From a virus, in IMG/VR virus record IMGVR_UViG_3300004807_000051, positions 1 through 39,285 of that record: a stretch of DNA of 39,285 nt; one strand, given 5' to 3'. The translations under genes were made by a program, and so were the position numbers. Positions 2,731 to 19,436 of this stretch are shown one piece after another. Position 1 is the stretch's first letter. Every line of letters begins with the position of its first letter. The notes beneath the pieces were generated by a model, which was given only the letters and a program-made list of their open reading frames with translations, was not told the origin of the DNA and did not search any database.

Positions 2731-3960
2731 ATGTCGCTACGTATTAGACGCGGAACAGATGCCCAAAGAACTAACCCAGGAATTACGCCCGACCAAGGCG
2801 AATTGATATACACTACTGACACTAAAAAATTATTTATTGGTGATGGTTCAACCCTTGGGGGAGTAAATATTGGACAATCATTAGCTGGTACAGGGCTAGT
2901 TTTTGACTCAATTACACAAACCCTACAAGCTACTGCACCACAGAGTAGCGGTATTACATCAGTATCTTCAGACTTGAATCCAAGCCTAGGAGGCAACTTA
3001 AATCTTAACAATAAAAATATTACAGGTACAGGTACTATTGGTATTGTAGGAACCATGTATGCAAGTCAAGGTCTAGGCGGCGACTTATCTTTGAATACTC
3101 ATAGCATTACAGGTACTGGCGGTATTAACATTACAGGCACGTTAAGCGTTACAGGACTAGGATCAGATCTTTCATTAAATTCTCATAATATTACAGGCAC
3201 TGGTAATATCACTACAACTGGTACACTAAGTGTTACAGGCCTGGGTACAGATTTATCACTTAACGGACACAATATTACAGGCACTGGTAATATCACTACA
3301 ACTGGTACACTAAGTGTTACAGGACTAGGATCGGATCTAGTATTAAATTCTCAAAATATTACAGGTACCGGCAATATGAATATAACTGGTGCTATTACAG
3401 CATCAGGCGCTGTTACTGGTAGCACTTTTACATCTGGTAACTTAAATGTTAACAGTAATGTTTTAAGTGTATCAAGCGGAATACTTACAATCAAAAATAG
3501 CAATTTATCTATAGCTAGTTTTGTAGGTGTTAGCGACGGTAGTCAAACACATATTCCTGGAGCTAATTTTTACTCATCTAGAGGAACATTATCTGCTCCG
3601 ACATCAAGTCAAGCAGGCGACTATCCGTTTGTTATTAATCTAGGTGGTTACAATGCTAGTACTGGTTATCAGTCTATTGCTTCGATCACATGTCAGTATG
3701 ATCCAACAGCAACTATGTCTAATTCGAATCCAGGTTCTAATATAGGCATTATCACTAACAACAATAACGGTGGCGTTAACGTAGCATTCTTTGATAAGCG
3801 CGGTGCATTTGGTGCACCAATATTCTGGGCTACAAGTTATACAACAACAGCTATGAACGCAATTCCAAATCCAGCCGCTGGAATGATTATTTTTAATTCA
3901 TCAGTTAATCACTTCTATGGTTATAATGGTACCTCTTGGGTAGCGTTTACCGGACCATAA
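2731..3960 (+). CDS. repeat-containing phage tail fibre / receptor-binding protein
   Basis: A 409-residue protein. Residues 1-55 carry a pattern like the Mtd-type N-terminal domain of tail fibres (LRIRRGTDAQR, GELIYTTDTKKLFIGDGST), which anchors the fibre to the tail. Residues about 86-225 hold Gly/Thr/Ser/Asn-rich repeats of 28 residues with the core NITGTGN-TGTLSVTGLG-DLSLN. The C-terminal part (about 260-409) is unrelated and ends in the FYGYNGTSWVAF type seen at fibre tips. It lies directly before the oxygenase/radical-SAM island and shares its late-type promoter class, so it is both a plausible partner and a candidate substrate of those enzymes; that link is inference from position only. 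Confidence 0.8.
   Translation: MSLRIRRGTDAQRTNPGITPDQGELIYTTDTKKLFIGDGSTLGGVNIGQSLAGTGLVFDSITQTLQATAPQSSGITSVSSDLNPSLGGNLNLNNKNITGTGTIGIVGTMYASQGLGGDLSLNTHSITGTGGINITGTLSVTGLGSDLSLNSHNITGTGNITTTGTLSVTGLGTDLSLNGHNITGTGNITTTGTLSVTGLGSDLVLNSQNITGTGNMNITGAITASGAVTGSTFTSGNLNVNSNVLSVSSGILTIKNSNLSIASFVGVSDGSQTHIPGANFYSSRGTLSAPTSSQAGDYPFVINLGGYNASTGYQSIASITCQYDPTATMSNSNPGSNIGIITNNNNGGVNVAFFDKRGAFGAPIFWATSYTTTAMNAIPNPAAGMIIFNSSVNHFYGYNGTSWVAFTGP
3070..3405 (+). repeat. four 84-bp coding repeats in the fibre gene
   Basis: Four in-frame units of 28 residues (114-141, 142-169, 170-197, 198-225), preceded by one diverged unit from about residue 86. Units two and three share an exact 53-bp stretch (3187-3239 and 3271-3323), 84 bp apart, pointing to a recent unit duplication or gene conversion. 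Such repeats usually form the shaft of a trimeric fibre. Confidence 0.9.
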
Positions 3961-3997: not shown

Positions 3998-4693
3998 ATG
4001 ACAAAAATCGAATCAGTATTAGCATTTGGTGATAGCACGGCCGCAGGCTGTGAACTGGCCGGTCCTTTAGAACAATTTAGGACTAGGGCATATCTAACAG
4101 GAAAAAAAACAATTGAAGAATTGGATGCTCCTGGTAAGTTACTGACCTTCCCAAAAAAAATAGCCAACTACTTAAATGTACCTTGTCACAATTATGCCAT
4201 GAGCGGTGGCAGTAATGACAGAAGTATAAGACTATTGATCCAAGCTGTTAAAGAATATCCAAATAGCCTAGTATTGTTTAGTTGGGGTCGACCCGATCTA
4301 AAAGACATCTATTACCCGGATGGGGGTATAGGGTGTGACAAGGATAGTTTTTTCCAAGCAGGCACTGATAATTTTGAAACAGCCTTTAATAAACAATGGA
4401 TAGAAACATATCATTACTATAATAATCTCGAACAACAGATGTTTTGTGTAGATGCAATTTGTAGAACACATGCCGTTGATTTTTTACAAATACCTTTGTA
4501 TCTAAAACGAACCGAACCCGAGTACGTACCAACTGTTCCTAATCGTTTATTTTTTGGTAAACATGGTAACGCTGAAGATTGGGCTATTGAAAAAAATTGT
4601 ACTAAATTAGAAATACACTACGGTGAGGATTTTCATATTGCATTGTCTGATTTAATTATTCAAACCTTGAAAGAAAAAGGTACAATTGAATGA
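3998..4693 (+). CDS. SGNH/GDSL-family hydrolase
   Basis: A 231-residue protein opening with FGDST, block I of the SGNH family (nucleophile S13), and carrying SGGSND with block III Asn at about 73. At the C-terminus EDFH stands where the family has DxxH, so the catalytic acid may be Glu 210 or replaced; H213 is present. SGNH enzymes are esterases, deacetylases or acyltransferases, often on glycans. It heads the first + block of the island and overlaps the next gene by 4 bases. Two more SGNH genes lie at 8544 and 20975. The substrate is unknown. Confidence 0.75.
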   Translation: MTKIESVLAFGDSTAAGCELAGPLEQFRTRAYLTGKKTIEELDAPGKLLTFPKKIANYLNVPCHNYAMSGGSNDRSIRLLIQAVKEYPNSLVLFSWGRPDLKDIYYPDGGIGCDKDSFFQAGTDNFETAFNKQWIETYHYYNNLEQQMFCVDAICRTHAVDFLQIPLYLKRTEPEYVPTVPNRLFFGKHGNAEDWAIEKNCTKLEIHYGEDFHIALSDLIIQTLKEKGTIE

Positions 4694-5439
4694 TAAAAGG
4701 TCAACTATTTTTAGATCTAGAACAATACATAGATCTAAAAGAATTTGATTCTCTGCATCCTGAAATTTGCAAGGGAATAGCCACTGCAAATCATTTGGCT
4801 GTGTGCGGACTTCAAACTTATCATCCCGGCACTGTTAATCCATACGCACAGGATATTAAGATAAATCCACTATCACAAGTTTATAAAGATTGGAGTCTAT
4901 CACCAGATACAGATCCATTAAAGATAGCAGGTAAAGATTTAACATATAATCAATTAACAACCTACTTAAAATTTGCTTGTGGTGCATACGACCACTATGC
5001 TGTTTATAAGTTGCTTGAAGATGATGTTAAAATACATTTTCCTAAACTAATTACTTGGATTCATGGTTTACAAAACTCTGGTATTTTTAAGAGTCTGTAT
5101 AGTGCAACTATTATGGCATTAGATGCGGGAGGCATTCCTTGGGAACATCACGATCCGGAAGATCCTTCAACTGGAATATATGATCCGTCTGCTATAACAT
5201 CTGGACAAATTACAGAATTTTTTCATATAAAAACTGATTGCGATAGACCTTTTTATATTATAGATCCTATATCAAAAAATAAAGTTTATATAAACACAAG
5301 AGTAGCATGGTGGGATGAACGTGATTGGCACGGAGGAGAACCTATAAATCGTCCTACATACACAGTAAGAGTCAATGGACGGTTTACAGATGACTTTCGT
5401 AAACAATTAGGAATAGAGGGTTACGATGTTAAATTATAA
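4690..5439 (+). CDS. Fe(II)/2-oxoglutarate oxygenase-like protein
   Basis: A 249-residue protein whose C-terminal half fits a double-stranded beta-helix oxygenase: the HxD pair H153/D155 in WEHHDPED, distal histidine H214 in DWHGGE, and R227 in YTVRV to hold 2-oxoglutarate. It is a clear paralogue of the gene at 15395: both share a DTDPxKxAG segment, the AWWxxxDWHGGE block and the ending F(R)KQLGI. These resemble Asp/Asn beta-hydroxylase-like enzymes, which hydroxylate side chains, but residues 1-140 belong to no domain I recognise. The gene overlaps its neighbours on both sides (4 and 14 bases). Confidence 0.75.
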   Translation: MIKGQLFLDLEQYIDLKEFDSLHPEICKGIATANHLAVCGLQTYHPGTVNPYAQDIKINPLSQVYKDWSLSPDTDPLKIAGKDLTYNQLTTYLKFACGAYDHYAVYKLLEDDVKIHFPKLITWIHGLQNSGIFKSLYSATIMALDAGGIPWEHHDPEDPSTGIYDPSAITSGQITEFFHIKTDCDRPFYIIDPISKNKVYINTRVAWWDERDWHGGEPINRPTYTVRVNGRFTDDFRKQLGIEGYDVKL

Positions 5440-6262
5440 AATACATCCTAACGGTTGGACTGTTTTTGTTGATATTGATCTAAGAACTTGTACCCAAGAA
5501 GATATTAACTCAATTGCAAAACTTATTGCAACCAATGTAATAGTTGTTTTCAAAAAACAATTCTTGTCGGTAGATGAGGAATTGAGAATACTACACATGT
5601 TCAAAAATCCTACTCCACTGTACGATAAAGATGATCCGCTTTTCTCAGATTATGCTATCGATCCAGACGGACTGATATGCAGAGTTACAGCAGAACTGCG
5701 TAATGGTAAACCTGGAATGGCCGGAGCTAGGGAAACATTCGATTGGCATGTAGACAGTCCACAAGTTTTTAATCGGAACGCACTTCTATATCTACGTAGT
5801 GTTCGAGGATCAAAAGGATCGCGCACTAGTTGGAATAATAATTTACGTGCCTATGATGATTTAGATGATACTGTAAAAAGTTATATAGAAAATCTGCATT
5901 GTGTGTACGGAAATATCAGGGCATTATGGGCACCAGACTTTACGGGAGTAAAATACAATTATGATTGGACTCCTAATCTAGTTCATAAAAATAATACAGG
6001 AGAATATGGTTTATATTTTGATCCTGCAGAATTAGAAAAATTTGTTGAACTTTCGTATGACAAATCTAATGAACTCAAGGAAATTTTAAGTCATCACATA
6101 TTCAGTGATAAGTATGTTTACGACCACGATTGGGAGGATGGGGATTTAATTTTAGCTGATATGTGGAACGGTTTGCATAAAAGATGGGCATTCGATAATA
6201 TGGACATTAGGGTTATGCACAGAGCAACGATGGATTATCCCAAACAAAATTATGAATTATAA
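5426..6262 (+). CDS. TauD-like Fe(II)/2-oxoglutarate dioxygenase, intact facial triad
   Basis: A 278-residue protein with the TauD/TfdA layout: an N-terminal NGWTV start, WHVDS giving the metal ligands H108 and D110, a GSRTSWNNN segment, distal histidine H251 in GLHKRW and R266 in MHRAT. TauD-family enzymes hydroxylate small molecules, often next to an amino or sulfonate group. It is the first of three paralogues (with 6824 and 7687) and the only one of them that keeps the normal HxD. It overlaps the gene upstream by 14 bases and the one downstream by 11. Its substrate is not known. Confidence 0.85.
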   Translation: MLNYKIHPNGWTVFVDIDLRTCTQEDINSIAKLIATNVIVVFKKQFLSVDEELRILHMFKNPTPLYDKDDPLFSDYAIDPDGLICRVTAELRNGKPGMAGARETFDWHVDSPQVFNRNALLYLRSVRGSKGSRTSWNNNLRAYDDLDDTVKSYIENLHCVYGNIRALWAPDFTGVKYNYDWTPNLVHKNNTGEYGLYFDPAELEKFVELSYDKSNELKEILSHHIFSDKYVYDHDWEDGDLILADMWNGLHKRWAFDNMDIRVMHRATMDYPKQNYEL

Positions 6263-6824
6263 TTTAGAAAATGTTTACCATAGATATCTAAACGTACCCA
6301 TTGATCCTAATATTAATTTATTTGATCAAAGTGGATTTGATACAAATTCCCATCATCATATTAAATTTGATAAAGAAGAAATTAATCCTGACTTAATAAA
6401 ATGGCTTGATAATTTTTCAATAAAACCTTTTTGGTATGAGGCATTTTATACACCACCAAACGGGGGCAAACTTCCTATACACATAGACGGGTTTGAAGGC
6501 CCAGACTATATTAAAATTAACTGGACATACGGCGCACCTGGCAGTAGTTTGATTTGGTGGGAACCTAAATCAAAAGAATATATAAAAACTGTAGAGACAG
6601 TTTTTGGTATTCCTTACTATGCAGTTGATGAAGAAAATTGTAATAAAGTATACGAAATTGAAATTAACAAACCTAGTTTAGTTAACGCAGGATTATTTCA
6701 CAGTACATATAATCCAACACCCGAGGGTAGATGGACATTTAGCATACCATTGATAGACGCAGTTGATAGAAATAGGTTGTCTTGGAACGATGCTATAAAG
6801 AGATTTGAAGGATTAATAATATAA
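6252..6824 (+). CDS. small Fe(II)/2-oxoglutarate oxygenase-fold protein
   Basis: A 190-residue protein with LPIHIDG (H77, D79), an internal SLIWWEP strand, GLFHS (H150) and GRWTFSIPL (R160), the order expected of a minimal jelly-roll oxygenase. It is shorter than the TauD-like neighbours and unrelated to them outside the fold; the nearest relatives in this window appear to be the small proteins at 16195 and 16716. It sits between two TauD-like paralogues, with ATG 6252 inside the previous gene and TAATG at its own end. The target is unknown. Confidence 0.7.
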   Translation: MNYNLENVYHRYLNVPIDPNINLFDQSGFDTNSHHHIKFDKEEINPDLIKWLDNFSIKPFWYEAFYTPPNGGKLPIHIDGFEGPDYIKINWTYGAPGSSLIWWEPKSKEYIKTVETVFGIPYYAVDEENCNKVYEIEINKPSLVNAGLFHSTYNPTPEGRWTFSIPLIDAVDRNRLSWNDAIKRFEGLII

Positions 6825-7690
6825 TGATAGATTACAAACTACATGAAAACGGCTGGACAGTTATCATAGAAAACGTTGACATGCGCACGGCCACACAAGA
6901 TGATATCAACGATATAGCCAAACTTCTTGCCACTAACACTTGTGTAGTAATTAAAAAACAAATGTTATCTGTTGAAGATGAAGTTAGGATTGCTAAGATG
7001 TTTAAGGATCCTCAACAGTTCCATGTAGATGTTCCTGGAACTTATGATCACGATTGCTATCTAGGAGCCGAAGTTCCAGGTTCAGATAAGATAGCCTTAA
7101 GGGTTAGTGGTGAAAAGGATGAGCATGGACGTACAGGACTGGCAGGTTGGACTGACGAGATGGTATGGCACTGTAACGATCCGCATGACCCTAATAGAAA
7201 ACCTCTTATCTGGTTGTACGGTGTAAAGGGAACTAAGGGTTCTAGAACTACTTGGAATAATAACATATTATCCTATAATGAACTAGATGAAGAAAGACGT
7301 AAATCTTTGGAAAATCTAAAACTAGTTATGGCTAATTGGGCCAAAGATGCTATGGATCTAGGCGAAGATGCTCCTGATACTATTGACGCTTACAATCCTA
7401 ATCTTGTGATGGCAAACATAGCAGGCAAAAAAGGATTCTTTTTTTCTTTCTTACAAATAAGTGGATTCGTAGGACTATCAGAAGAAAAAAGTAAAAATAT
7501 TATTGCTTGGTTAACTGAACATACAACACAAGACAAGTATTGTTATCATCATGACTGGGAGGATGGCGATATTGTTATAGCAGAACAATGGTTAGGTATA
7601 CACAAGCGTTGGCCATTTGCAGAAATAGAAAAAAGAACATTGCATCGAATAGCGTTTGATTTTCCAGATCAGGATTATTCACAAATATGA
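6824..7690 (+). CDS. TauD-like protein with Asn in place of the metal-binding Asp
   Basis: A 288-residue paralogue of the 5426 product, and especially close to the 7687 product; both share the ending blocks DKYCYHHDWEDGD and EQWLGIHKRWPF. The position of the HxD pair reads VWHCND, so H116 is followed by N118 instead of Asp, while the distal His (GIHKRW) and the Arg (LHRIA) remain. A loss of the carboxylate ligand in this family can mean altered chemistry or loss of catalysis; which applies here cannot be told from sequence. Overlaps TAATG upstream and ATGA downstream. Confidence 0.8.
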   Translation: MIDYKLHENGWTVIIENVDMRTATQDDINDIAKLLATNTCVVIKKQMLSVEDEVRIAKMFKDPQQFHVDVPGTYDHDCYLGAEVPGSDKIALRVSGEKDEHGRTGLAGWTDEMVWHCNDPHDPNRKPLIWLYGVKGTKGSRTTWNNNILSYNELDEERRKSLENLKLVMANWAKDAMDLGEDAPDTIDAYNPNLVMANIAGKKGFFFSFLQISGFVGLSEEKSKNIIAWLTEHTTQDKYCYHHDWEDGDIVIAEQWLGIHKRWPFAEIEKRTLHRIAFDFPDQDYSQI

Positions 7691-8547
7691 AATATCATTT
7701 ACACGAAAACGGTTGGACTGTATTAGTAGACGATTTTAATTTTAATCTAGCCACACAGGCCGACATCAATCAAATTGCTTGGTTAATTGCAAATAACACT
7801 TGTGTAGTTTTTAAGAATCAGTCGTTGTCAGTCGAAGACGAACTTAGAATTGCCCACATGTTCAAACGCCCAAAACCATTGTTCAAATCTAAAGAAGAAG
7901 AAAATTTTAAGAATTGGGCAGTAGATCCTGACGGTATCATTGCACGAGTCACTGGGGAATTAAATGAACGTGGTAAGCCTGGTATTGCGGGACACGAGGA
8001 TGAAATGGTATGGCATTGTAATATGCCGCAGGATAGAGATCGTTGTCCTATTATTTGGTTATATGCTGTTAAGGGTTCAAAAGGATCACGTACTAGTTGG
8101 AACAATAACATACTATCCTATAACGACCTAGACCAATCTACTAAAGAACAACTTAAACAATTAAAATGTATATATGCAGGCGGAGCCATTGTAGATGAAC
8201 ATGGACAAAACAGTAATCTAGAATATACTGCTACAGTAGTTGAATCTTTTCAACCTCCGTTAGTATATACAAACAATGCCGGAAAGACAGGGCTTTACCT
8301 TTCATTCTTGCAATTAGATTCGTTTGTAGGCATGACCAAAGAAGAATCAATTAAACTTATAAAACCTATTTGGGAACATACAATACAAGACAAGTATTGT
8401 TATCATCACGACTGGGAAGACGGTGATGTGGTTATAGCAGAACAATGGTTGGGTGTACATAGACGTTGGCCATTTGAAAATATTGAAGAAAGATTATTAC
8501 ATAGAATAGCCATCGATTTTCCTGATCAAGAATACGGAGACATATGA
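7687..8547 (+). CDS. second TauD-like protein with HxN instead of HxD
   Basis: A 286-residue protein that looks like a tandem duplicate of the preceding gene. The metal site reads VWHCNM (H110, N112), with no Asp at the ligand position. The middle region 160-190 is different from its sister and holds a short insertion around DEHGQNSNLE. The distal HRRW and HRIAIDFPDQ blocks are preserved. Because both copies keep the same substitution but diverge elsewhere, selection seems to have kept HxN, which argues against random decay. It overlaps both neighbours by 4 bases. Confidence 0.8.
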   Translation: MKYHLHENGWTVLVDDFNFNLATQADINQIAWLIANNTCVVFKNQSLSVEDELRIAHMFKRPKPLFKSKEEENFKNWAVDPDGIIARVTGELNERGKPGIAGHEDEMVWHCNMPQDRDRCPIIWLYAVKGSKGSRTSWNNNILSYNDLDQSTKEQLKQLKCIYAGGAIVDEHGQNSNLEYTATVVESFQPPLVYTNNAGKTGLYLSFLQLDSFVGMTKEESIKLIKPIWEHTIQDKYCYHHDWEDGDVVIAEQWLGVHRRWPFENIEERLLHRIAIDFPDQEYGDI

Positions 8548-9347
8548 GCTTCAAACATCTAGTCACTTCTGGATGCAGTTTCAGCGATAACACAGAATCG
8601 CACTGGCCGCATTACCTTTCTAAAAAATTAAATTTAGAACTTCATAATAGAGGAATGAGTAGTGCCGGAAATAGTTGGATTTGTAAATCAACTATATACC
8701 AGATCCAACAATTATTAGAGTCGGGTATAACTCCTGAAGAAATTCTTGTTGTTGTTATGTGGTCAGATATTGGTAGACAAGATATGTTTATCGATTCTAA
8801 TAATCCATTTAATGTCTATAAGGACTTATTGAATAAAGATGGTGATCCTAATCCTGTAAACTTTATAGATAACTCTCCTAATATTGTATGTAGACAAAGC
8901 TCTGTAAAAGAAGATGGTTATCTACTTGGAGGTTTATATGCACCATTTACTAACCATAATATTATTAATTTCAAAAAAGATATTTGGAAATATTTTCCAT
9001 CACAATCTATGGCAATACAATCTTATGAAAATTTTCTAAGGTTACAATGGTTGTGCGAAGCAAATGGAATAGCCCTAGTCAATCTAACTATGATAGATAT
9101 AATGCATTATCCATCAGAAGAGCGCAGAGGCATGCTGACTAAAGACTATTTTAGAAATGTAGATCATTTATACAAAATGGTCAACTTGAATAAATGGATA
9201 TTCTGGGATTCAACTAAAGGATTGTATGAATATACTAGAGACAACGATCTTACATTCAATTCAGACGGCGAGCATCCGTCAACAGAAAGCCATGAGCATT
9301 ATGTTAATAACTTTTTAGTTGAAAAACTAAGGCAACTCATCTATTAA
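8544..9347 (+). CDS. SGNH/GDSL-like hydrolase
   Basis: A 267-residue protein with block I written as SGCSFS (likely nucleophile S12), a SSAGNSW segment for the block III Asn, and DGEHPS with D241 and H244 as the DxxH pair. All key positions of an SGNH esterase or acyltransferase are therefore present, though GDS is replaced by GCS. It ends the first + block, and its last 21 bases overlap the end of the gene on the opposite strand. It is a distant paralogue of the 3998 and 20975 genes. Confidence 0.75.
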   Translation: MSFKHLVTSGCSFSDNTESHWPHYLSKKLNLELHNRGMSSAGNSWICKSTIYQIQQLLESGITPEEILVVVMWSDIGRQDMFIDSNNPFNVYKDLLNKDGDPNPVNFIDNSPNIVCRQSSVKEDGYLLGGLYAPFTNHNIINFKKDIWKYFPSQSMAIQSYENFLRLQWLCEANGIALVNLTMIDIMHYPSEERRGMLTKDYFRNVDHLYKMVNLNKWIFWDSTKGLYEYTRDNDLTFNSDGEHPSTESHEHYVNNFLVEKLRQLIY

Positions 9348-9974
9348 TATATATTCGCCGGTAGCATTTTGTTTACTGGCTGCTTGCTCAATTAATTTTT
9401 TCCAACCATCAGTAGCATCATGCCGAGCAATAATCATATGCATACGATCTGTATTGCTATTGTTAATTAACGTATGATCATAGTGCAAGTTCATTGCATA
9501 CACGCCGCCTGGCTCCATAATTAATTCTTCGCTATCTCCCCAAATCCATTTGCAACCTATTGGGTTGTTTAGGGCAATATTGATATTTTCAACCAGTTTC
9601 ATACTGGAATCATTATGTCTAGAAATGTGTCCGCCGGCTTTTAATAACATAAATCTTACTCTACCATATCTGTTACAAGGAAAAACTTCTTTTAACCATC
9701 TTGTTGTAACAGGACACAAGTCTGCTATTTCTGTCCAGTGCATATCTTTGCTAGCATCTTTACCTTTAGCATAACCATATGTTTGATACCCTTCGTGCTT
9801 ATCCCAACCTAGCCCATGTATAGTTAAACTTTCCCAACCACTATGGGCATAGTCATCTCCCCTGTGGGGTGTAAACTTGTCAAGCAAAGCAAATGCCTCC
9901 CTACACATTTCATCATGGGGAAGATCGATATCTAATTTTAGACATTTGACATCAGATTGAAAATATTCTTTCAT
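9327..9974 (-). CDS. Fe(II)/2-oxoglutarate oxygenase, Asp/Asn beta-hydroxylase-like
   Basis: A 215-residue protein with ISRHNDSS (H120, D122), YDHTLIN (H167) and DRMHMII (R177), plus the NIALNNPIGCKW and WGDSEELIMEPGG strands common in Asp/Asn beta-hydroxylase-like enzymes. ATG 9974 is chosen because it makes an ATGA with the stop of the gene upstream; an in-frame TTG or ATG further up would run deep into that gene. Last gene of the second block; its end overlaps the + strand SGNH gene. Known relatives hydroxylate Asp, Asn or proline-like residues, but the target here is open. Confidence 0.8.
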   Translation of the reverse strand: MKEYFQSDVKCLKLDIDLPHDEMCREAFALLDKFTPHRGDDYAHSGWESLTIHGLGWDKHEGYQTYGYAKGKDASKDMHWTEIADLCPVTTRWLKEVFPCNRYGRVRFMLLKAGGHISRHNDSSMKLVENINIALNNPIGCKWIWGDSEELIMEPGGVYAMNLHYDHTLINNSNTDRMHMIIARHDATDGWKKLIEQAASKQNATGEYILIDELP

Positions 9975-10627
9975 AAATGTCCAAATGCCCATATACGTTC
10001 TTGGCACCACCAGCACTTGCCACAATGGGAGTCTGGGTGATCATCATTTTCACAACTTCTAGTAACAGGTAACAATGCTTGTTCTAAATCTAACGACTGA
10101 TATAACCTTGCTATATCTTTTTTGTTGTAGTTACGTAACGGAACGTAAGTCCTTTCATCTAACCTTAAAGACTCTATAGTTAAACCAAATAATGGATGTT
10201 CTACTTCGTCGCTTCTAAATTCATTGTGCCAGTCTTGTTGTTGTTGTTCAAATTGTAGATAAACTTCTTTGGGTGGGAACTTGGTCACACCCATGTACAT
10301 GATATCAACTTCTTTACTATCTAATGCTTGTGTTAGCAGATTAAAATAAAATTCAATTGTTTCTTTTGGTTCAACTTGAGCTTTGTGTACAACATAATTG
10401 GTGTTGCCTGTTAGTTTAGAACATGTTTCGATTACAGCATCTACGCTTTTAGCAAATGCAAATTTTCTGCTACTGGACCACATATTGTAAATGTGTATCG
10501 TCTCAGTGATATTACTCATTAGTATATACAGTAGCACAGCACTGTCTGCTCCGCCACTAATACCTACACCTACTGGTCCGTCATTGTAGATGCCAAGTGG
10601 TATATCGTCAATATTAATATAGTTCAT
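9971..10627 (-). CDS. PP-loop ATP pyrophosphatase, QueC-like
   Basis: A 218-residue protein with the PP-loop SGGADS at residues 24-29, which binds ATP and forms an adenylated intermediate. The C-terminus has C192, C202, C205 and C208 in the pattern CxnCGKCWWCxER, like the zinc site of QueC (7-cyano-7-deazaguanine synthase). No other deazaguanine gene is visible nearby, so a different adenylation reaction (amide, nitrile or thio transfer) in the island pathway is as likely. The gene overlaps its upstream neighbour by ATGA, and its own end overlaps the oxygenase start at 9974. Confidence 0.75.
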   Translation of the reverse strand: MNYINIDDIPLGIYNDGPVGVGISGGADSAVLLYILMSNITETIHIYNMWSSSRKFAFAKSVDAVIETCSKLTGNTNYVVHKAQVEPKETIEFYFNLLTQALDSKEVDIMYMGVTKFPPKEVYLQFEQQQQDWHNEFRSDEVEHPLFGLTIESLRLDERTYVPLRNYNKKDIARLYQSLDLEQALLPVTRSCENDDHPDSHCGKCWWCQERIWAFGHL

Positions 10628-12069
10628 ACAACTCCTAAAGGACGACTACTAGAATGTTTCCAGTCGTCCGTATGCCACTTGGGCATTTTTAATTCTGTAA
10701 TATCAGTATAGGCAAAATTATCAACTACTCCTGAATACTGTATGTTGTCTGACTTCCAAAAACCATCTGCGGCCCGTGCAGTTAACATAACCTCTACATT
10801 AGGATCTATATTTTTTAGTTGTTGCAATAATCTATTCTCACAACTGATACGATACTTTAGGCTATTCATAGCAATAAAAGGAGAATGGTTGTATAAATTA
10901 CTAAGATTTAATATTGTTTTACAGCCAACTTTTAACCAATCAAAGTTAAAAGATGCTGTGTAATCTATAAGAACATAATCATATGATAGTGCTTTAATTC
11001 GTGCCCAGACAGATTCCCAATCGTCGATCGTTGTTAAAAAATGTTCCCATTGTTTTTCTATTTGATGTTTATAGTCCTCTGGAATATACGGAGGGTTATT
11101 AGGTAGCATGGGTTTGTGTGCCCAATAGAAATCTGCGTAATTTTTACCATCCCATTCTTCAACCATTTTCTTCATAAACATTAAACAGTTATAGTTTATG
11201 TCTGTAAAAATTATTCGAGTATCTTGTGTAAATCCTACAAGTTCCAAATTCTTAATCCAGTTGAATCCTATTCCAACTGTAGCATATTGTTCAACAGGGC
11301 CGTTAAACGGCAGTTGACTTCTTAGTGTATCAGAGTTCCAACCAGCAAAGAAGTTAGTGGCAAAAAACTGATAGTGTTTTATATCGGCTAGTCTTGTTAA
11401 AAACACATGGTCGTACTCGTAGTATAGATATCTTTTACTTGACCTAACTTCTGAACTAATTTGAATTATAGACTTGTTGTGTGTTAGTCCTACATTTATA
11501 ATATTCCAACCGTGTAATTTAACTTGTGATGTTACAATAGCATCACCTTGTTTAATCCACACGGGTAACTTTGGATCGTTGTACAAGTATTCATTGCTAC
11601 GTAAATTTGAAACTTGCTCGTGTTCAATCCATAACTCTACTCCTATACTTGGACACCCCACTTCAGCGTATTCTAACAAATTTACAATATAAAATTGTTG
11701 ATGTAATTCAAATCCGGCATTTTCTTTATAGTAAGCATTGTTGTTTCTATCAATGATGTGCCCGGCTATAAAGAAATTGGTCTGGCATTGTGTTTCAACA
11801 GCATCAAATAATCTATCCGACAATCCTAGGCTAGTTCCTGATGATATAATTACAGCATGACTATAACCGTTTGATACGGCTGTACGTAGTAAAGAATCTT
11901 CATCTTTGTCAATAAGAATGTCGTAACCATATAAATCAAATCTGTGTATTAGAAAATCTGTTAGATTTACACATACCTCTTTTGCATATCCAGATAGACA
12001 GCTGTCTGTGATATCTAAAATACAGTACACTATAGATTTTTGATGTTTGGTTCTAAACTTAGTTACCAT
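10624..12069 (-). CDS. large two-part protein, possible glycosyltransferase-like N-part and methyltransferase-like C-part
   Basis: A 481-residue protein. Residues 1-200 have a Rossmann-like pattern (HAVIISSGTSL) and a GHIIDRNN…ELHQQFYIVNL stretch that I have seen in phage proteins of unknown activity, some described as glycosyltransferase-like. Residues about 240-460 look like a second alpha/beta domain: VGIGFNWIKNLEL, then IIFTDINYNC, then YDYVLIDYTASFN, similar to the glycine loop, acidic strand and later strands of a class I methyltransferase. Neither activity is certain. It lies between a PP-loop enzyme and a GNAT-like gene, overlapped on both sides. Confidence 0.45.
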   Translation of the reverse strand: MVTKFRTKHQKSIVYCILDITDSCLSGYAKEVCVNLTDFLIHRFDLYGYDILIDKDEDSLLRTAVSNGYSHAVIISSGTSLGLSDRLFDAVETQCQTNFFIAGHIIDRNNNAYYKENAGFELHQQFYIVNLLEYAEVGCPSIGVELWIEHEQVSNLRSNEYLYNDPKLPVWIKQGDAIVTSQVKLHGWNIINVGLTHNKSIIQISSEVRSSKRYLYYEYDHVFLTRLADIKHYQFFATNFFAGWNSDTLRSQLPFNGPVEQYATVGIGFNWIKNLELVGFTQDTRIIFTDINYNCLMFMKKMVEEWDGKNYADFYWAHKPMLPNNPPYIPEDYKHQIEKQWEHFLTTIDDWESVWARIKALSYDYVLIDYTASFNFDWLKVGCKTILNLSNLYNHSPFIAMNSLKYRISCENRLLQQLKNIDPNVEVMLTARAADGFWKSDNIQYSGVVDNFAYTDITELKMPKWHTDDWKHSSSRPLGVV

Positions 12070-12614
12070 CGAGGATACTTTCCTAACTCTTCTAAAAATT
12101 TTCTAGGATACAATTCCCACACAGTTTGTCTAGTACCTCGGTAGTCTATTTCCTTAATGCGTTTCATTTGTCCCGTAGCTTCCATTGCTGGACCAAATAT
12201 GTTATGTACTAAACGTTGTGTACCAACGCTGTTCTCATTGCTAGTAATGTATAAGTTAGCCCACGGTGGAGTCCATTCGATACATGTAGGTATTAGGAAT
12301 TGACTAGTAATGTGTTGATGCGTTACAATTTGATTACGTGTGCGTATACTGGGAATAGGTATATGATCTGAAAACACGCAAGTACGTGCGGCTATGCGAT
12401 AAGCATCTTCACCCATCTCTGGAAAACTGTGTGCGCCTACACTGCCTATGGCTTTATCATTGTAGTAAAGAATCCACACGCACCACTTGTCTTCCTTTGC
12501 TAAACTATCTACTAGCATTTTTTGGCTAGCGTTATTTTCAAATCCTTTAGCCTTAGCCGTGGCATAGAACTCTGTTAAGTCAAGGTCGGGTGTCCATTGT
12601 TTTATTTCAAACAT
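12063..12614 (-). CDS. GNAT-like acetyltransferase
   Basis: A 183-residue protein. The order WCVWILYYNDKAIGSVGAH (central strands), an RTCVFSDHIPI segment, a region around residues 105-130, and a late helix NSVGTQRLVHNIFG fits the GCN5-related N-acetyltransferase fold. The acetyl-CoA loop (R/Q-x-x-G-x-G/A) is not clearly readable, so acyl transfer is probable rather than certain. Its 3' end overlaps the next gene by 7 bases and its start overlaps the kinase-like gene by 13. Likely adds an acyl group to an amine made or exposed by the pathway. Confidence 0.5.
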   Translation of the reverse strand: MFEIKQWTPDLDLTEFYATAKAKGFENNASQKMLVDSLAKEDKWCVWILYYNDKAIGSVGAHSFPEMGEDAYRIAARTCVFSDHIPIPSIRTRNQIVTHQHITSQFLIPTCIEWTPPWANLYITSNENSVGTQRLVHNIFGPAMEATGQMKRIKEIDYRGTRQTVWELYPRKFLEELGKYPRW

Positions 12615-13282
12615 TTAACACGCTCAATAAAATCTGCAGGATAATTAGTACTAAAACTGTTCCAACATAGTTGATCCATGACTTCCCAAGGTTGCGGTTT
12701 GTCCCATTTAATTCTCAGTGTATCTAAATGTTTACGCATTTCATCTTGTCTTGTTGAATAGATATGACTTTCAACTTCTTGGATACTGATGGTGGGTTCG
12801 TCCTTGTGATAGGTAAAAAAGTAATTTATGCTTTTTAATTTACCATCCACTACAAAATAACTACTAGGGTGCATACTGTACTTGTGCCAGCCTCGTGCTT
12901 GATGTGCTTGGATGATTGCTATCATCTGCTCTTGCCAATCAGGCAACACACTATCATAATTTGCTTGATCGCACCCTGCTTGTTCCCAAAAGTCGGGCCC
13001 ATCTATTTCCAAATATATTTTACACTCTGGTATGTTTACTTCTACAATTTTTGGAACCATGTCAGGGTTATGCCAAGCCATGTTTGACAAATAGTGTAGT
13101 TCCCTATGAAACTTTTCTTTCATGAGTTTTGGATCAACCACTTGATTTTTGCCAGCATGGTATTCGGTATCATTATGATACCATTGACAAAACAGTTTTT
13201 CATCCTCGCTAATAAGACTTGTGTAAATTAAATTATTTCGGCAAGGTCCTTGCCCGGGTACATTGTTATAATAATATTTCAT
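12602..13282 (-). CDS. degenerate protein-kinase/APH-like protein
   Basis: A 226-residue protein paralogous to the 17200 product. The order resembles a compact kinase of the aminoglycoside phosphotransferase type: an ELHYLSNMA helix (possible alpha-C), KIYLEIDG (hinge-like), then WHKYSMHPSSYFVVDGKLK and SINYFF where kinases have HxDxxxxN and the DFG-like Asp. Here the catalytic Asp, the Asn and the metal Asp appear to be lost, so it may bind a nucleotide or a partner rather than phosphorylate. ATG 13282 is preferred to ATG 13315, since the paralogue begins at the matching place. First gene of its - block. Confidence 0.45.
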   Translation of the reverse strand: MKYYYNNVPGQGPCRNNLIYTSLISEDEKLFCQWYHNDTEYHAGKNQVVDPKLMKEKFHRELHYLSNMAWHNPDMVPKIVEVNIPECKIYLEIDGPDFWEQAGCDQANYDSVLPDWQEQMIAIIQAHQARGWHKYSMHPSSYFVVDGKLKSINYFFTYHKDEPTISIQEVESHIYSTRQDEMRKHLDTLRIKWDKPQPWEVMDQLCWNSFSTNYPADFIERVKCLK

Positions 13283-13297
13283 AGTATAGTAATTATC

Positions 13298-13305
13298 AAT
13301 AAATA
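13298..13305 (+). promoter_or_regulatory. late-promoter-like box, near-leaderless
   Basis: AATAAATA, one mismatch to TATAAATA, lies 8 bases before ATG 13314, with no ribosome site. It sits in the 31-bp gap between divergent blocks. Confidence 0.5.
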
Positions 13306-13313
13306 TTTGCCAC

Positions 13314-14351
13314 ATGACAACTTCAGAAACTATTTCCCTGTGCGAAACATGTTATCGGCACATACCAGCAAATCGATTTGAACGAGATGGGCAAATGATG
13401 TTGGGCAAAATATGCCCCAAGCACGGATATCAAGAAGCAATACTTGATATTAACATAGATTTTTACAAAAGTCAACAGTATCAAAGACGTAGACCTAGCA
13501 GTTATTGGTTAGACATTACTAATCGTTGTAACTTAGATTGCCCGCATTGTTATCAAATGCCCGATAACTCTAGCAAGGATCCTAGCATTGATTATTTGTT
13601 GTCCGAAGTTATGAGTTGGCCAGACAATGGATTGCCAGTGAGTTTGGTAGGCGCCGAGCCTACTGTTCGAAAAGACCTAGCCGACATAGTATTGGCAATA
13701 CATGCCTTGCCCATTAAACGCAGGAATGTTATAATAGTTACTAACGGTGTGTATCTAGCCAAGTGGGATTATGTCAGCAGGTTTGAAGGAATACCAAACT
13801 TAAAATGGACTTTTGGTCTTAACCATCCTGACTATAATGGCGGACAGATACGTGTCAAACAAATGGAAGGGTTGGAAAACTGTATCAAGCTAGGCCTAGA
13901 TGTTAAGACCTTGACCTATACACTGGCCAATTTAGAACAATTGACAGATGTAATGCACGAAGTACAAAAATTTAAGATCAATGCCAGGATACAGTTGGGT
14001 GTTGAAATTGGTCGTGTGCCTGAAGGTGATTTCAAAGAACTTTATTTGTCGGAACTTGTTGCTGTAGCAGAACAGTTTTGTCAAGACAATAGCTGGACCT
14101 GGGAGCCAGACTTAGAAGGCGGCAACCGTACACACTATGCTGTTCGTATAAACGGCATTGAACACAAGTTTATCAAATGGTGTGATGTGCGTACAATAGA
14201 CTTGGAAGAAGTACAGAGTGAATCATGGGCTAGTATAGTGCCAGGCAAGCCTATGAGTCCTCTGCTACATCAGGTCATACTGCGTGATCAAGCAGTAAAC
14301 AAAGGGCAGATGTTGTTGGATACAGTACCTGAAAAATATAGACATGAATAA
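13314..14351 (+). CDS. radical SAM enzyme, Tes/MJ0619-like
   Basis: A 345-residue enzyme. Residues 10-37 form a small N-terminal metal site (C10, C13, C34, H37 in CETC…CPKHG), seen in the radical-SAM group that includes tetraether lipid synthase Tes and MJ0619. The SAM cluster motif CNLDCPHC follows at 72-79 and VGAEP is the SAM-binding GGEP equivalent. Enzymes of this kind form difficult C-C bonds or methylate; the substrate here is unknown, and lipid or pterin chemistry is only a family clue. It heads the third block and its 3' end overlaps a close paralogue by 8 bases. Confidence 0.8.
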   Translation: MTTSETISLCETCYRHIPANRFERDGQMMLGKICPKHGYQEAILDINIDFYKSQQYQRRRPSSYWLDITNRCNLDCPHCYQMPDNSSKDPSIDYLLSEVMSWPDNGLPVSLVGAEPTVRKDLADIVLAIHALPIKRRNVIIVTNGVYLAKWDYVSRFEGIPNLKWTFGLNHPDYNGGQIRVKQMEGLENCIKLGLDVKTLTYTLANLEQLTDVMHEVQKFKINARIQLGVEIGRVPEGDFKELYLSELVAVAEQFCQDNSWTWEPDLEGGNRTHYAVRINGIEHKFIKWCDVRTIDLEEVQSESWASIVPGKPMSPLLHQVILRDQAVNKGQMLLDTVPEKYRHE

Positions 14352-15408
14352 AATACACGACACCACATCCGTATGTGAACATTGCTACAGACACATACCT
14401 GCTGTTCTTTTTGAGAGAGATGGTAGTATATGGTTAGGTAAAACATGCAAGTGGCATGGACAAAGTGAACACTTGGTAGAACCCAACGCAGACTTTTACA
14501 TCAACTACAAATACGAACGCCCTACTAATCATACCTACTGTCTAGACATTACTAATCGTTGTAACCTAAACTGTCCTCACTGCTATCAGATTCCCGATAA
14601 CATGAGCAAGGACCCTAGCATAGACAGTATACTAGATACTATTCGTGCGTGGGATGATGATGGATATGCTGTGGCCCTAATGGGTGCTGAACCTACTACT
14701 AGAAAAGACTTGCCCGACCTGTGTCGTGCTATACAGGCTCTGCCTGGGAAGCCACGTGCTATAATGATATTAACAAATGGTGTTTATCTATCTGACTATG
14801 AGTATTGTAAACAATTTGCCAATATGCCTAACTTGTTCTGGACCATAGGTCTCAATCATCCAGACTATCAAGGACACACTGTTAGAAAGAAACAGATGGA
14901 AGGAATTGACAACTGCATGAAATTAAACATGACCATTAAAAATGTCAGTTATACTCTTGAAACCATTGATCAGTTAGAATACTGTTTGGAAGAAATACAA
15001 GTGTTTGGCAAGACATTGAGTCCGCACAATTATAGAATTCGTGTAGGTACAGACATAGGACGTCATCCTGGTGAAGAAAAGATTTATTTGTCTGAGTTAG
15101 TTGATAGAGTTAAAGAGATTTGTGATAACAAAGGATGGACACACGAGTTTGTTCTATCTTACGGGATACGAGTCCATTACCCAATGCGTATAAACGGAAT
15201 TCTAGTTAAGATAATACAATGGCCAGATGTGCGCACTATTGATCTAGAAGAAGATCAAACTGAGTCTTGGGCTGACATGTTACCCGGTAAACCTGTAAGT
15301 CCACTAGTACACCAAGTTATCTTACGTGACGGTGCTGTGAATAAAAACTTACCCTTGTATGATACAGTACCAGAAAAATATCAAAGGAAATATGATGCGA
15401 GGGATTAA
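14344..15408 (+). CDS. radical SAM enzyme, tandem paralogue (Tes/MJ0619-like)
   Basis: A 354-residue paralogue of the previous product with the same plan: N-terminal C11, C14, C35, H38; SAM cluster C73, C77, C80 (CNLNCPHC); MGAEP; and matching C-terminal blocks KPxSPLxHQVILRD. The similarity covers the whole length, so this is a tandem duplication followed by divergence. Two such enzymes side by side may carry out consecutive or mirrored steps, or form a heterodimer. Its end overlaps the oxygenase gene that starts at 15395. Confidence 0.8.
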   Translation: MNKIHDTTSVCEHCYRHIPAVLFERDGSIWLGKTCKWHGQSEHLVEPNADFYINYKYERPTNHTYCLDITNRCNLNCPHCYQIPDNMSKDPSIDSILDTIRAWDDDGYAVALMGAEPTTRKDLPDLCRAIQALPGKPRAIMILTNGVYLSDYEYCKQFANMPNLFWTIGLNHPDYQGHTVRKKQMEGIDNCMKLNMTIKNVSYTLETIDQLEYCLEEIQVFGKTLSPHNYRIRVGTDIGRHPGEEKIYLSELVDRVKEICDNKGWTHEFVLSYGIRVHYPMRINGILVKIIQWPDVRTIDLEEDQTESWADMLPGKPVSPLVHQVILRDGAVNKNLPLYDTVPEKYQRKYDARD

Positions 15409-16719: not shown

Positions 16720-17207
16720 TAACCTAGCAAGTGGAACATATACTTGTTAGCAAGACTGCCGTTGATACCGTTGTGCCAAGCTCTATAGTCGTTCCATACT
16801 AGCACACTACCTTGTTCCATATTGTAGTAGTAATTACTGCCCATAATGAATAATTGTCCTATACTGGGCTCGCCGATAAACACACTGTATCTTTTTATCT
16901 GTCCTAACTTCAAGTATTCTTCTTCGTTGTCATCTATATCATAATGATAGCCGGTCATGTAACCAGGCTCCACGCAACTGATCCAACTGCGCAAGGGTGT
17001 TACAAAAAACTGTTCAGCTAGTTCTTTTTCAAGATCCTCGGTGTCGTAGTAGTTGGTCCATTTGACGCTGTCTGTGTTGAAGTTACTTGCCTTCCAAAGT
17101 TTTAGTATTTCTGCGTACTCAGGGTTGGCCATGTTCCACTTGCTAGGATCAACCGTGATATCTCTACCGTCTTTGAGATTGGCTATTACTTGATTCCAAT
17201 TAATCAC
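16716..17207 (-). CDS. small oxygenase-fold protein with Lys at the 2-oxoglutarate position
   Basis: A 163-residue protein with GYHYDIDD (H88, D90), a QLFIMGS strand, AWHNGING (H145) and then NKYMFHL, where K155 stands at the place of the Arg that normally binds 2-oxoglutarate. Lys does this job in some family members such as FIH, so activity is still possible. I chose GTG 17207 because AAGAGG lies 6 bases before it; a TTG at 17234 is the longer alternative. Last gene of the fourth block. Confidence 0.65.
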   Translation of the reverse strand: MINWNQVIANLKDGRDITVDPSKWNMANPEYAEILKLWKASNFNTDSVKWTNYYDTEDLEKELAEQFFVTPLRSWISCVEPGYMTGYHYDIDDNEEEYLKLGQIKRYSVFIGEPSIGQLFIMGSNYYYNMEQGSVLVWNDYRAWHNGINGSLANKYMFHLLGY

Positions 17208-17895
17208 AATAGACCTCTTGGAATAATTCAGCAAACACAGTATTGCCCCACGACTTTTCTTGTAAGTGTTTGGTCACTGTAATTTCAAAAAACTTCTTAA
17301 AGTCAATGAAACCATTTTCGTCAGTTGAATAGTTGAAACGATAAGCACCGTCTTTGCCTATAATACCTTCTATTAGATCACGTTTGATAAAACGTTCCTC
17401 ATAAGGTACTACAGCATAGTTGTCTATGGTTTTTAGTTGCCCTCCTTTACTAACAAAGAAACAGTTAGGATATAGACTCAGCTTCCAGAACTCACGCTCT
17501 TTAGTAGAGATGAAAAATGCTTTCATCTGCTCACGCCAATCAGGCACTTCCTCGTCTAAGTTACGGCCAGGAGTAAACAAGATCTGACTAAATGTTTCTT
17601 TGTTCCATTCCATAAAAATTCGTCTAGTGGTATGGTCAACATCATACAGTTTAGGAGTAGTGGCGAGATCGGCTAGCTCTGTTAAGAACTTGACGTCACG
17701 CTTAAAGAACCAATCAAGTAGTTCTTCCGATATGATGTTAGTGTCGTTGGGTCTATAGTTGAGGTCGGTACAGTAATGAGCACACATTACAGTCTGCTCA
17801 GAATTAATCCTAGGAGTATATAACATATTAGAGGACCATAGTGTTCCTGTAGGATTTAGTTTGTGATAATAGTTCCAAGTGCTAGTGTCTGTCAT
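17200..17895 (-). CDS. kinase-like protein, partly degenerate (paralogue of the 12602 gene)
   Basis: A 231-residue protein aligned along its length with the 12602 product. The pattern is KLYDVDHTTRRIFMEWN (hinge-like), WREQMKAFF, then LSLYPNCFFV and QLKTIDNY. In the APH/kinase comparison this keeps the Asn of the catalytic loop and the Asp of the metal site but not the catalytic Asp, so it is less decayed than its sister. ATG 17895 overlaps the upstream stop as ATGA, which sets the start; a TTG at 17907 is rejected. It sits between a B12-type radical SAM gene and an oxygenase gene. Confidence 0.5.
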   Translation of the reverse strand: MTDTSTWNYYHKLNPTGTLWSSNMLYTPRINSEQTVMCAHYCTDLNYRPNDTNIISEELLDWFFKRDVKFLTELADLATTPKLYDVDHTTRRIFMEWNKETFSQILFTPGRNLDEEVPDWREQMKAFFISTKEREFWKLSLYPNCFFVSKGGQLKTIDNYAVVPYEERFIKRDLIEGIIGKDGAYRFNYSTDENGFIDFKKFFEITVTKHLQEKSWGNTVFAELFQEVYCD

Positions 17896-19436
17896 TGTGG
17901 TGTCCAATTTAATTTTTTTGTTATATAGGATTTGACTTGATCCTTGAATTTTTGATCGCTAGTATCTATATCGGTAAGACGTTGATCATATATGTCTTCG
18001 TAATTGTTGGTCTCATAGTAGGCAAACAATCTGTCACTTAGGAAAGGATTACATCCACGCAGGCCTTGGAAACCTTGTGGGCTATAGAATTCCTGTACCA
18101 GTGACTGTGCTCGATACCAATCCATATCCTTATGACTCCAGATAACAATATCGTTTCTGGTACTGCCCACACCACCTCCTCGCGGTGTGGTGCTGGTAAA
18201 TTTAACCTCGCCCTTGCTGTCTCTGGTGACTTCATATCCTGGGTTATGCCTTGCTTCTAACTTAATTAATCCATTACTAACAAGTTCCTTAGTAAAGCGG
18301 CTTTGGTTAGTCAATGACTCGTCATAGTCTGGCACTTCCAATATGTGTGCGCTGGCACTTTGTCTTAGCCAATTGGTATTCAACCATTCAAGACTAGAAT
18401 ACCAAGACTCCTTAGTCTCCCCTGGTATACCACATATCATTTGTATGTTGGCTCTATAACGTCGGGGAGCGTATATATCTGTATAGGCTTGGAAGTCTAA
18501 CAAGCCTTGTTGCAGTTTGTCTGGGTCCATGCCCTTACGTACTAGCCGACCTGCTTCCTTGTTAAATGTTTCAATGCCCATGCTGTGTCCAAGGAATCCT
18601 AGTCTTACATAAGTGTCCCAATAGTCTCTATGATTAACCACAAGGTCACCCCTAGCAAATCCACACATCCAAGTATTGTATCCTAGTTCATCTACAGCTT
18701 CGGCATACTTCTCTAACTTATCTGGACGATCATTAAATGTTTCGTCCATCACACGCCAATTGACAATGCCCCACTTTTCGTAGCCTAACTGTAATTGTTT
18801 CTTAAATTCTTCTTTGCTGACACTGACATCTTTAGTTTGTCCTAGTAGGGGAAAGTTACAGTAGGAACATTTGAACATACAACCACGTGCTGTTTCGATC
18901 TGTGGGCACTCCCAAGGCATCATAAAATCACGTGCTTCATAGTCTACTAGGTAATTGTCTAATGGCGCACTAGGATAATGATACAAGCCACGAACAACAC
19001 TCTTGACTCCAAAGTACATAGGGTCACGCATCAAAGGTGCTCCTAGTGTGCCAGTAAGATGACGACATACAGCCAACACAGCGTTTTCGCCATAACTATC
19101 GACCCAGTAGTCTACGTGATTAGCAGGAGTAGTTAGAGCATTGTTGCCGCCTACTACTATAGCTACTAAGGGATATTCGTCTTTGAGCCAGGCTGTAAAT
19201 TCATTAAGGTATGGACTCCATGGATTCAAAAAGGCAGTGCCAAAACAAAACATCACAGTCTTACTAGTTGTTCTACTACGTACAAGCTCTTTAAGTTCTT
19301 CTAAAGCCCAGAAGGCTGTAAAGTCTACAACTTCACAGTCCCAGTCCTGCTGTCGTAAGAAAGTGGCCACACGATGTGTCCATAGAATACGTTCCCAGCG
19401 TTTGCCTGTTAGGCTAAAGAATATGGCGTGATTCAT
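17892..19436 (-). CDS. B12-binding-domain-type radical SAM enzyme
   Basis: A 514-residue enzyme. Residues 1-135 look like a Rossmann cobalamin-binding-type domain (VVGGNNALTTPANHVDYWV), although the DxHxxG motif is missing, so base-off cobalamin contact is uncertain. The SAM cluster is in RGCMFKCSYC (C186, C190, C193), followed by a TIM-barrel-like region with GHSMGIETFN and ICGIPGET. Residues 370-514 are an extra C-terminal part of unknown role. Family members perform methyl transfers and ring formation on unactivated carbons. Overlaps neighbours by ATGA on both sides. Confidence 0.8.
   Translation of the reverse strand: MNHAIFFSLTGKRWERILWTHRVATFLRQQDWDCEVVDFTAFWALEELKELVRSRTTSKTVMFCFGTAFLNPWSPYLNEFTAWLKDEYPLVAIVVGGNNALTTPANHVDYWVDSYGENAVLAVCRHLTGTLGAPLMRDPMYFGVKSVVRGLYHYPSAPLDNYLVDYEARDFMMPWECPQIETARGCMFKCSYCNFPLLGQTKDVSVSKEEFKKQLQLGYEKWGIVNWRVMDETFNDRPDKLEKYAEAVDELGYNTWMCGFARGDLVVNHRDYWDTYVRLGFLGHSMGIETFNKEAGRLVRKGMDPDKLQQGLLDFQAYTDIYAPRRYRANIQMICGIPGETKESWYSSLEWLNTNWLRQSASAHILEVPDYDESLTNQSRFTKELVSNGLIKLEARHNPGYEVTRDSKGEVKFTSTTPRGGGVGSTRNDIVIWSHKDMDWYRAQSLVQEFYSPQGFQGLRGCNPFLSDRLFAYYETNNYEDIYDQRLTDIDTSDQKFKDQVKSYITKKLNWTPQ

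Follow-up and report, generated by a model that had tools for sequence, protein, structure and literature searches.

The window, which is the whole 39,285-base virus record IMGVR_UViG_3300004807_000051 of IMG/VR, carries two adjacent genes for TauD-fold proteins with asparagine at the position of the metal-binding aspartate, and a paralogue with the canonical residue. We refer to genes by their first coordinate:

5426 to 6262, plus strand: TauD-fold paralogue, 278 aa (PF02668, E 2.4e-21), WHVD motif with H108-x-D110
6824 to 7690, plus strand: TauD-fold protein, 288 aa (PF02668, E 8.4e-24), H116-x-N118, distal H260, R275
7175 to 7177, plus strand: codon AAC of N118 in 6824, the Asp-to-Asn metal-ligand position, as read from the codon
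7687 to 8547, plus strand: second TauD-fold protein, 286 aa (PF02668, E 3.9e-25), H110-x-N112, distal H258, R273
8020 to 8022, plus strand: codon AAT of N112 in 7687, equivalent to N118 of 6824, as read from the codon

Genes 6824 and 7687 overlap by 4 bases and match PF02668 with 85.3 and 89.7 bits against a curated cut-off of 27, and 5426 also scores above that cut-off. The motif WHCN spans residues 115–118 in 6824 (H116 codon CAC) and 109–112 in 7687, and D110 of 5426 is encoded by GAC at 5753–5755. An initial sequence-only reading had set H116-x-N118 and H110-x-N112 against H108-x-D110 of 5426, and its residue numbers are exact at the codon level (AAC, AAT and GAC). It was also right that the distal His and Arg are retained (H260/R275 in 6824 and H258/R273 in 7687) and that the two copies keep Asn while having diverged, their identity being 55%; 6824 and 5426 are 43–45% identical. 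The HxD...H triad of two histidines and one carboxylate is thus absent from 6824 and 7687, and the 2OG-anchoring Arg after the distal His is present in both.

A phmmer search of the PDB pairs WHCN with WHSD of the putative 2,4-D dioxygenase 5j92, and in multiple alignments the Asn column is the metal-binding Asp column of cellular TauD homologues. The AF2 model of 6824, made without metal, has a mean pLDDT of 94.2, and its closest solved structures are TfdA/AAD-type and TauD enzymes (Foldseek E 2.7e-18 to 6d1o, TM 0.7–0.8). On sequence and model, both proteins are full-length members of the predicted TauD fold, a double-stranded beta-helix. The HxN motif is no sequencing or coding artefact, because other oxygenases of the same cluster, the 4690/15359 family with H188 and D190, keep HxD.

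Relatives were sought in viral contigs with a single protein as query, with an alignment of 53 rows and with the homologues from P-HM1 and Mosig; the alignment scan by itself gave 222 relatives, and its best 80 were carried forward. A survey of homologues for the HxN form had been named as a check in the sequence-only reading. In the combined alignment of 225 proteins, the 184 distinct full-length phage relatives comprise 168 with HxN, 15 with HxD and 1 with HxA, and retention of Asn on this scale is not a product of chance. HxH occurs in the alignment only in one MAG protein from this family, which is entered twice. Cellular TauD proteins, sampled from Pseudomonadota and the phylum of a Saccharothrix genome, had HxD in 39/39 cases in a first set and in 60/61 in a second, the remaining one being the HxH MAG protein; as the sets share at least one gene, they amount to about 98 distinct HxD proteins. 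Close relatives were not found in cellular genomes with a single-sequence query, and an alignment query gave only one family member (HxH, from a betaproteobacterial MAG) and two remote proteins. The HxH gene (DWHTHH; positions 3371–4183 of L052) lies on a 17.7-kb contig of the TMED41 MAG, possibly a phage contig binned with it. The HxA protein (GELDWHSAEAG, an Fe/2OG halogenase motif) is identical at 3001–3825 of L190 and L191, the only two contigs in which it was found.

Genes annotated as "taurine catabolism dioxygenase" in the phages P-HM1, P-HM2 (a match to PHROG 24590) and Mosig belong to the same phage clade as the window pair. They are annotated by fold only and are 22–24% identical to 6824. 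Read directly, the proteins of P-HM1, a cultured cyanophage, and Mosig, a pelagiphage, are HxN, which is likewise the form of the P-HM1-type and Mosig-type proteins whose sequence includes the motif, environmental relatives among them. In the cyanophage MED4-213 (L051, 5968–7037), the P-HM1-type gene is spread over two overlapping, separately annotated ORFs, possibly through a frameshift.

To place the change in the tree, we inferred two maximum-likelihood trees with the motif column left out, rooted on different cellular TauD sets. In both, phage HxD proteins nest within HxN as two separate clades, one of them containing 5426, and a single clade for the 13 HxD rows is rejected (AU test, P value about 3e-56). 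The simplest reading is that the window's phage clade descends from an HxN ancestor, with a change from Asp to Asn at or near its base and later returns to Asp. P-HM1-type HxN proteins share a side group near the base with one HxA and one HxD protein of phages and with an HxD protein of Erythrobacter, so that HxN may have arisen once or twice. On these trees, the aspartate of 5426 is a secondary reversion from Asn. The suggestion that HxD has become HxN therefore holds in comparison with cellular TauD but not with 5426, for which the direction is the opposite.

The residues around the presumed active site are deeply conserved. In the numbering of 6824, W115, H116, N118, T142, Y241, W245, H260, R262, R271 and R275 are invariant in 99/99 close full-length HxN relatives, and W115, H116, H260, R262, R271 and R275 are kept in 97–100% of the 168 HxN proteins (97.6% for the R275 column). 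Between the window and L004, dN/dS was 0.018 for 6824, 0.058 for 7687 and 0.069 for 5426, rough values as synonymous sites are near saturation; judged from these rates, the HxN genes are under strong purifying selection. A working metal and 2OG site is supported because both His and the Arg are kept at depth and because two returns to HxD would be unexpected after loss of the metal site; such a loss in the HxN ancestors is hard to square with HxD having re-arisen twice, the rest being intact. While conservation thus favors a working site, binding of the metal by Asn is a separate matter, and the His and Arg could also have been retained to hold 2OG or substrate in a protein that carries out no oxidation.

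The genes around the pair were compared across 75 loci. In about 30 of them we observed a recurrent order of an Mtd_N tail protein, a canonical HxD 2OG-like protein, one to four TauD proteins, an AspH-like protein, a PP-loop protein, proteins of 481 and 183 aa, a weakly kinase-like 237-aa protein, two HMPTM-type radical SAM proteins and a second 2OG-like protein. The corresponding features of the window are:

2731 to 3960, plus strand: protein with major tropism determinant (Mtd) N-terminal domain, likely tail or receptor-binding (PF18454, E 1.3e-10), upstream, in 23/75 loci
4690 to 5439, plus strand: second 2OG-oxygenase-like family, canonical HxD, paralogue at 15359; conserved neighbor, no Pfam match
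6252 to 6824, plus strand: small putative 2OG-type oxygenase with HID motif, from its translation, between the TauD genes; in 4/75 loci, no Pfam hit
9327 to 10025, minus strand: aspartyl/asparaginyl beta-hydroxylase-like protein (PF05118, E 1.2e-11), in 31/75 loci
9971 to 10627, minus strand: PP-loop (QueC-like) ATPase (PF06508, E 4e-9), in 15 loci
10624 to 12069, minus strand: 481-aa protein with weak methyltransferase-like fold (AF2 pLDDT 87; NNMT/PNMT-type matches, E about 4e-4 to 6e-3), in 29 loci
12063 to 13315, minus strand: 183-aa protein without match and weakly kinase-like 237-aa protein, conserved neighbors
13314 to 15408, plus strand: radical SAM pair with HMPTM zinc ribbon (PF04055 and PF23545), in 30 loci

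For the 481-aa protein, family and phage-database matches were not found, and comparison of four neighbor families with the PDB was uninformative except for a weak kinase-like match of the 237-aa protein. The 237-aa family has paralogues at 12602–13315 and 17200–17907, which are 24% identical and match a protein-kinase profile weakly (E about 3e-5). About nine radical SAM genes are densely packed into positions 9327–30580, together with AspH-like, PP-loop, kinase-like and 2OG genes. The Mosig HxN gene sits amid AspH, desaturase, aminotransferase and acetyltransferase genes and adjoins tail fibers, and the P-HM1 gene lies near gp59 and gp32. A P22-type portal was not found in the nine contigs searched. 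Host-recognition regions with radical SAM cassettes have been reported earlier from pelagimyophages (PMC7029224). The genomic context of the window pair does not suggest taurine use, and we infer that the cluster encodes a pathway that tailors a component of the virion or of the host surface.

Our preferred reading, to which we give a probability of roughly 55%, is that 6824 and 7687 have catalytic activity as 2OG-dependent Fe(II) enzymes whose site consists of two histidines and one asparagine, and that they act in this phage tailoring cluster. Iron would be held by H116 and H260 of 6824 and 2OG anchored by R275, whereas N118 would either serve as a neutral amide ligand to the iron or yield its place to water or another anion. 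The HxN enzymes would act with the radical SAM, AspH and methyltransferase-like proteins and the other 2OG oxygenases, and the cluster would put oxidized groups on a virion or host-surface component.

With TauD/TfdA Fe(II)/2OG dioxygenases (PF02668; PDB 6d1o, 5bk9, 1os7 and 5j92) the pair shares the fold, both His, the 2OG Arg and the WHx[D/N] position, but it differs in having Asn for the metal-binding Asp, in its identity of only 14–20% in structural alignments and in its setting in a phage tailoring cluster. Methylphosphonate synthase belongs to a different cupin family and is not known to depend on 2OG, and its ligand is Gln, whereas the window pair has Asn, matches the TauD family and keeps the 2OG Arg. 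It nevertheless provides a natural carboxamide iron ligand, in a 2-His-1-Gln site where the carboxamide replaces the carboxylate as proposed here for HxN (PMC11978286). Published ligand exchanges point both ways: in favor of the proposal, TauD with His255 replaced by Gln retains 81% of its activity, and against it, in prolyl 4-hydroxylase the Asp is replaceable by Glu only (PMC2767507).

The earlier reading had left two options, altered metal chemistry or a non-catalytic partner role such as heteromers with 5426. The former gains indirect support from a motif that is old, conserved and strongly selected, with His and Arg intact; the latter finds no support. That the proteins are non-catalytic, with the fold and perhaps 2OG or metal binding kept, and act as structural or regulatory partners of HxD paralogues such as 5426, is in our view unlikely, though it is the strongest of the competing explanations. 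It agrees with the finding that losing the metal-binding Asp abolished the activity of prolyl 4-hydroxylase (PMC2767507) and with the arrangement of the genes, as an HxD member of the family never occurs without an HxN gene beside it. However, 88 locus entries (duplicates included, in the fetched stretches) have HxN only, in one to four copies, and an HxD partner is unlikely to be required because most HxN loci show none in these stretches, a copy outside them being possible. HxN is moreover the ancestral state from which HxD was derived twice, and the HxN copies, whose His and Arg are invariant, are under selection no weaker than that on the HxD copy. A halogenase-like site, with Asn off the iron and the open place taken by an exogenous anion (halide, azide, nitrite or substrate carboxylate) for group transfer rather than hydroxylation, seems still less likely. 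The Fe/2OG halogenases SyrB2 and CytC3 have lost the ligand at this same position and work with two His and no carboxylate (PMC2767507), and, as described above, one related phage protein has HxA and one family member HxH. Yet these halogenases carry Ala or Gly with a bound halide, and the side chain of Asn would occupy the halide site. Asn, present in both window proteins and 168 phage relatives, is invariant within the class and not mixed with Ala or Gly; Ala occurs in one relative only, and that protein falls in the side group with HxD relatives.

Two further explanations would restore the carboxylate, and we regard both as improbable. In one, another acid, for example four or two residues before the His on the same strand, completes the 2-His-1-carboxylate site; a different conserved Asp or Glu as second ligand was what the sequence-only reading had named as evidence against itself. 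Asp or Glu does occur at His-4 or His-2 in 165/168 HxN proteins against 8/39 of the first cellular set, and E112 at His-4 is the acid column most enriched in HxN (86%, compared with 47% in HxD and 18% in the first cellular set), D247 being less so. The same acid is nevertheless found in 14/15 phage HxD paralogues, three HxN proteins have it at neither position, and the exchange between -4 and -2 does not reach significance in independent pairs, which correct for relatedness. Both acids precede the His in sequence, and the ligand position known for this fold is elsewhere. Because the nearest cellular relatives carry Glu at His-4 beside a canonical HxD (GEVVWHSDFS), the acid is best seen as inherited and not as a substitute ligand, and it belongs more probably to the substrate pocket. 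The other explanation, that Asn in the mature protein has been deamidated to Asp, either spontaneously or by an enzyme, invokes a possible protein change but is the least credible of all: Asn has been kept though Asp is one base away and has arisen twice, and the next residue, where a constant Gly would favor deamidation, differs between proteins (G, E, D, Q, K or another).

Textbooks identify Fe/2OG oxygenases by the triad of two histidines and one carboxylate, whose Asp is often regarded as indispensable except in halogenases and AspH. We found nothing specific on a natural 2-His-1-Asn, HxN or Asn-ligand 2OG enzyme in the open-access literature, and a review from 2013 on atypical non-heme iron sites makes no mention of asparagine; a natural enzyme of this kind is thus likely new to the literature. 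More tentatively, and with the odds against it, the pair may represent a natural 2-His-1-Asn Fe(II)/2OG class that is widespread in aquatic phages, in which the neutral ligand steers the reaction away from hydroxylation, towards anion transfer, desaturation or the oxidation of hard substrates, and Asn and Asp interconvert in evolution. Marine phage genes labeled "taurine dioxygenase" should not be taken as evidence of taurine metabolism. A large and conserved phage clade with Asn at this position, inside which Asp has come back two or more times, amounts to a natural experiment on the triad rule, and as the proteins are small and confidently predicted, with homologues in cultured cyanophages and a pelagiphage, the question is open to direct testing.
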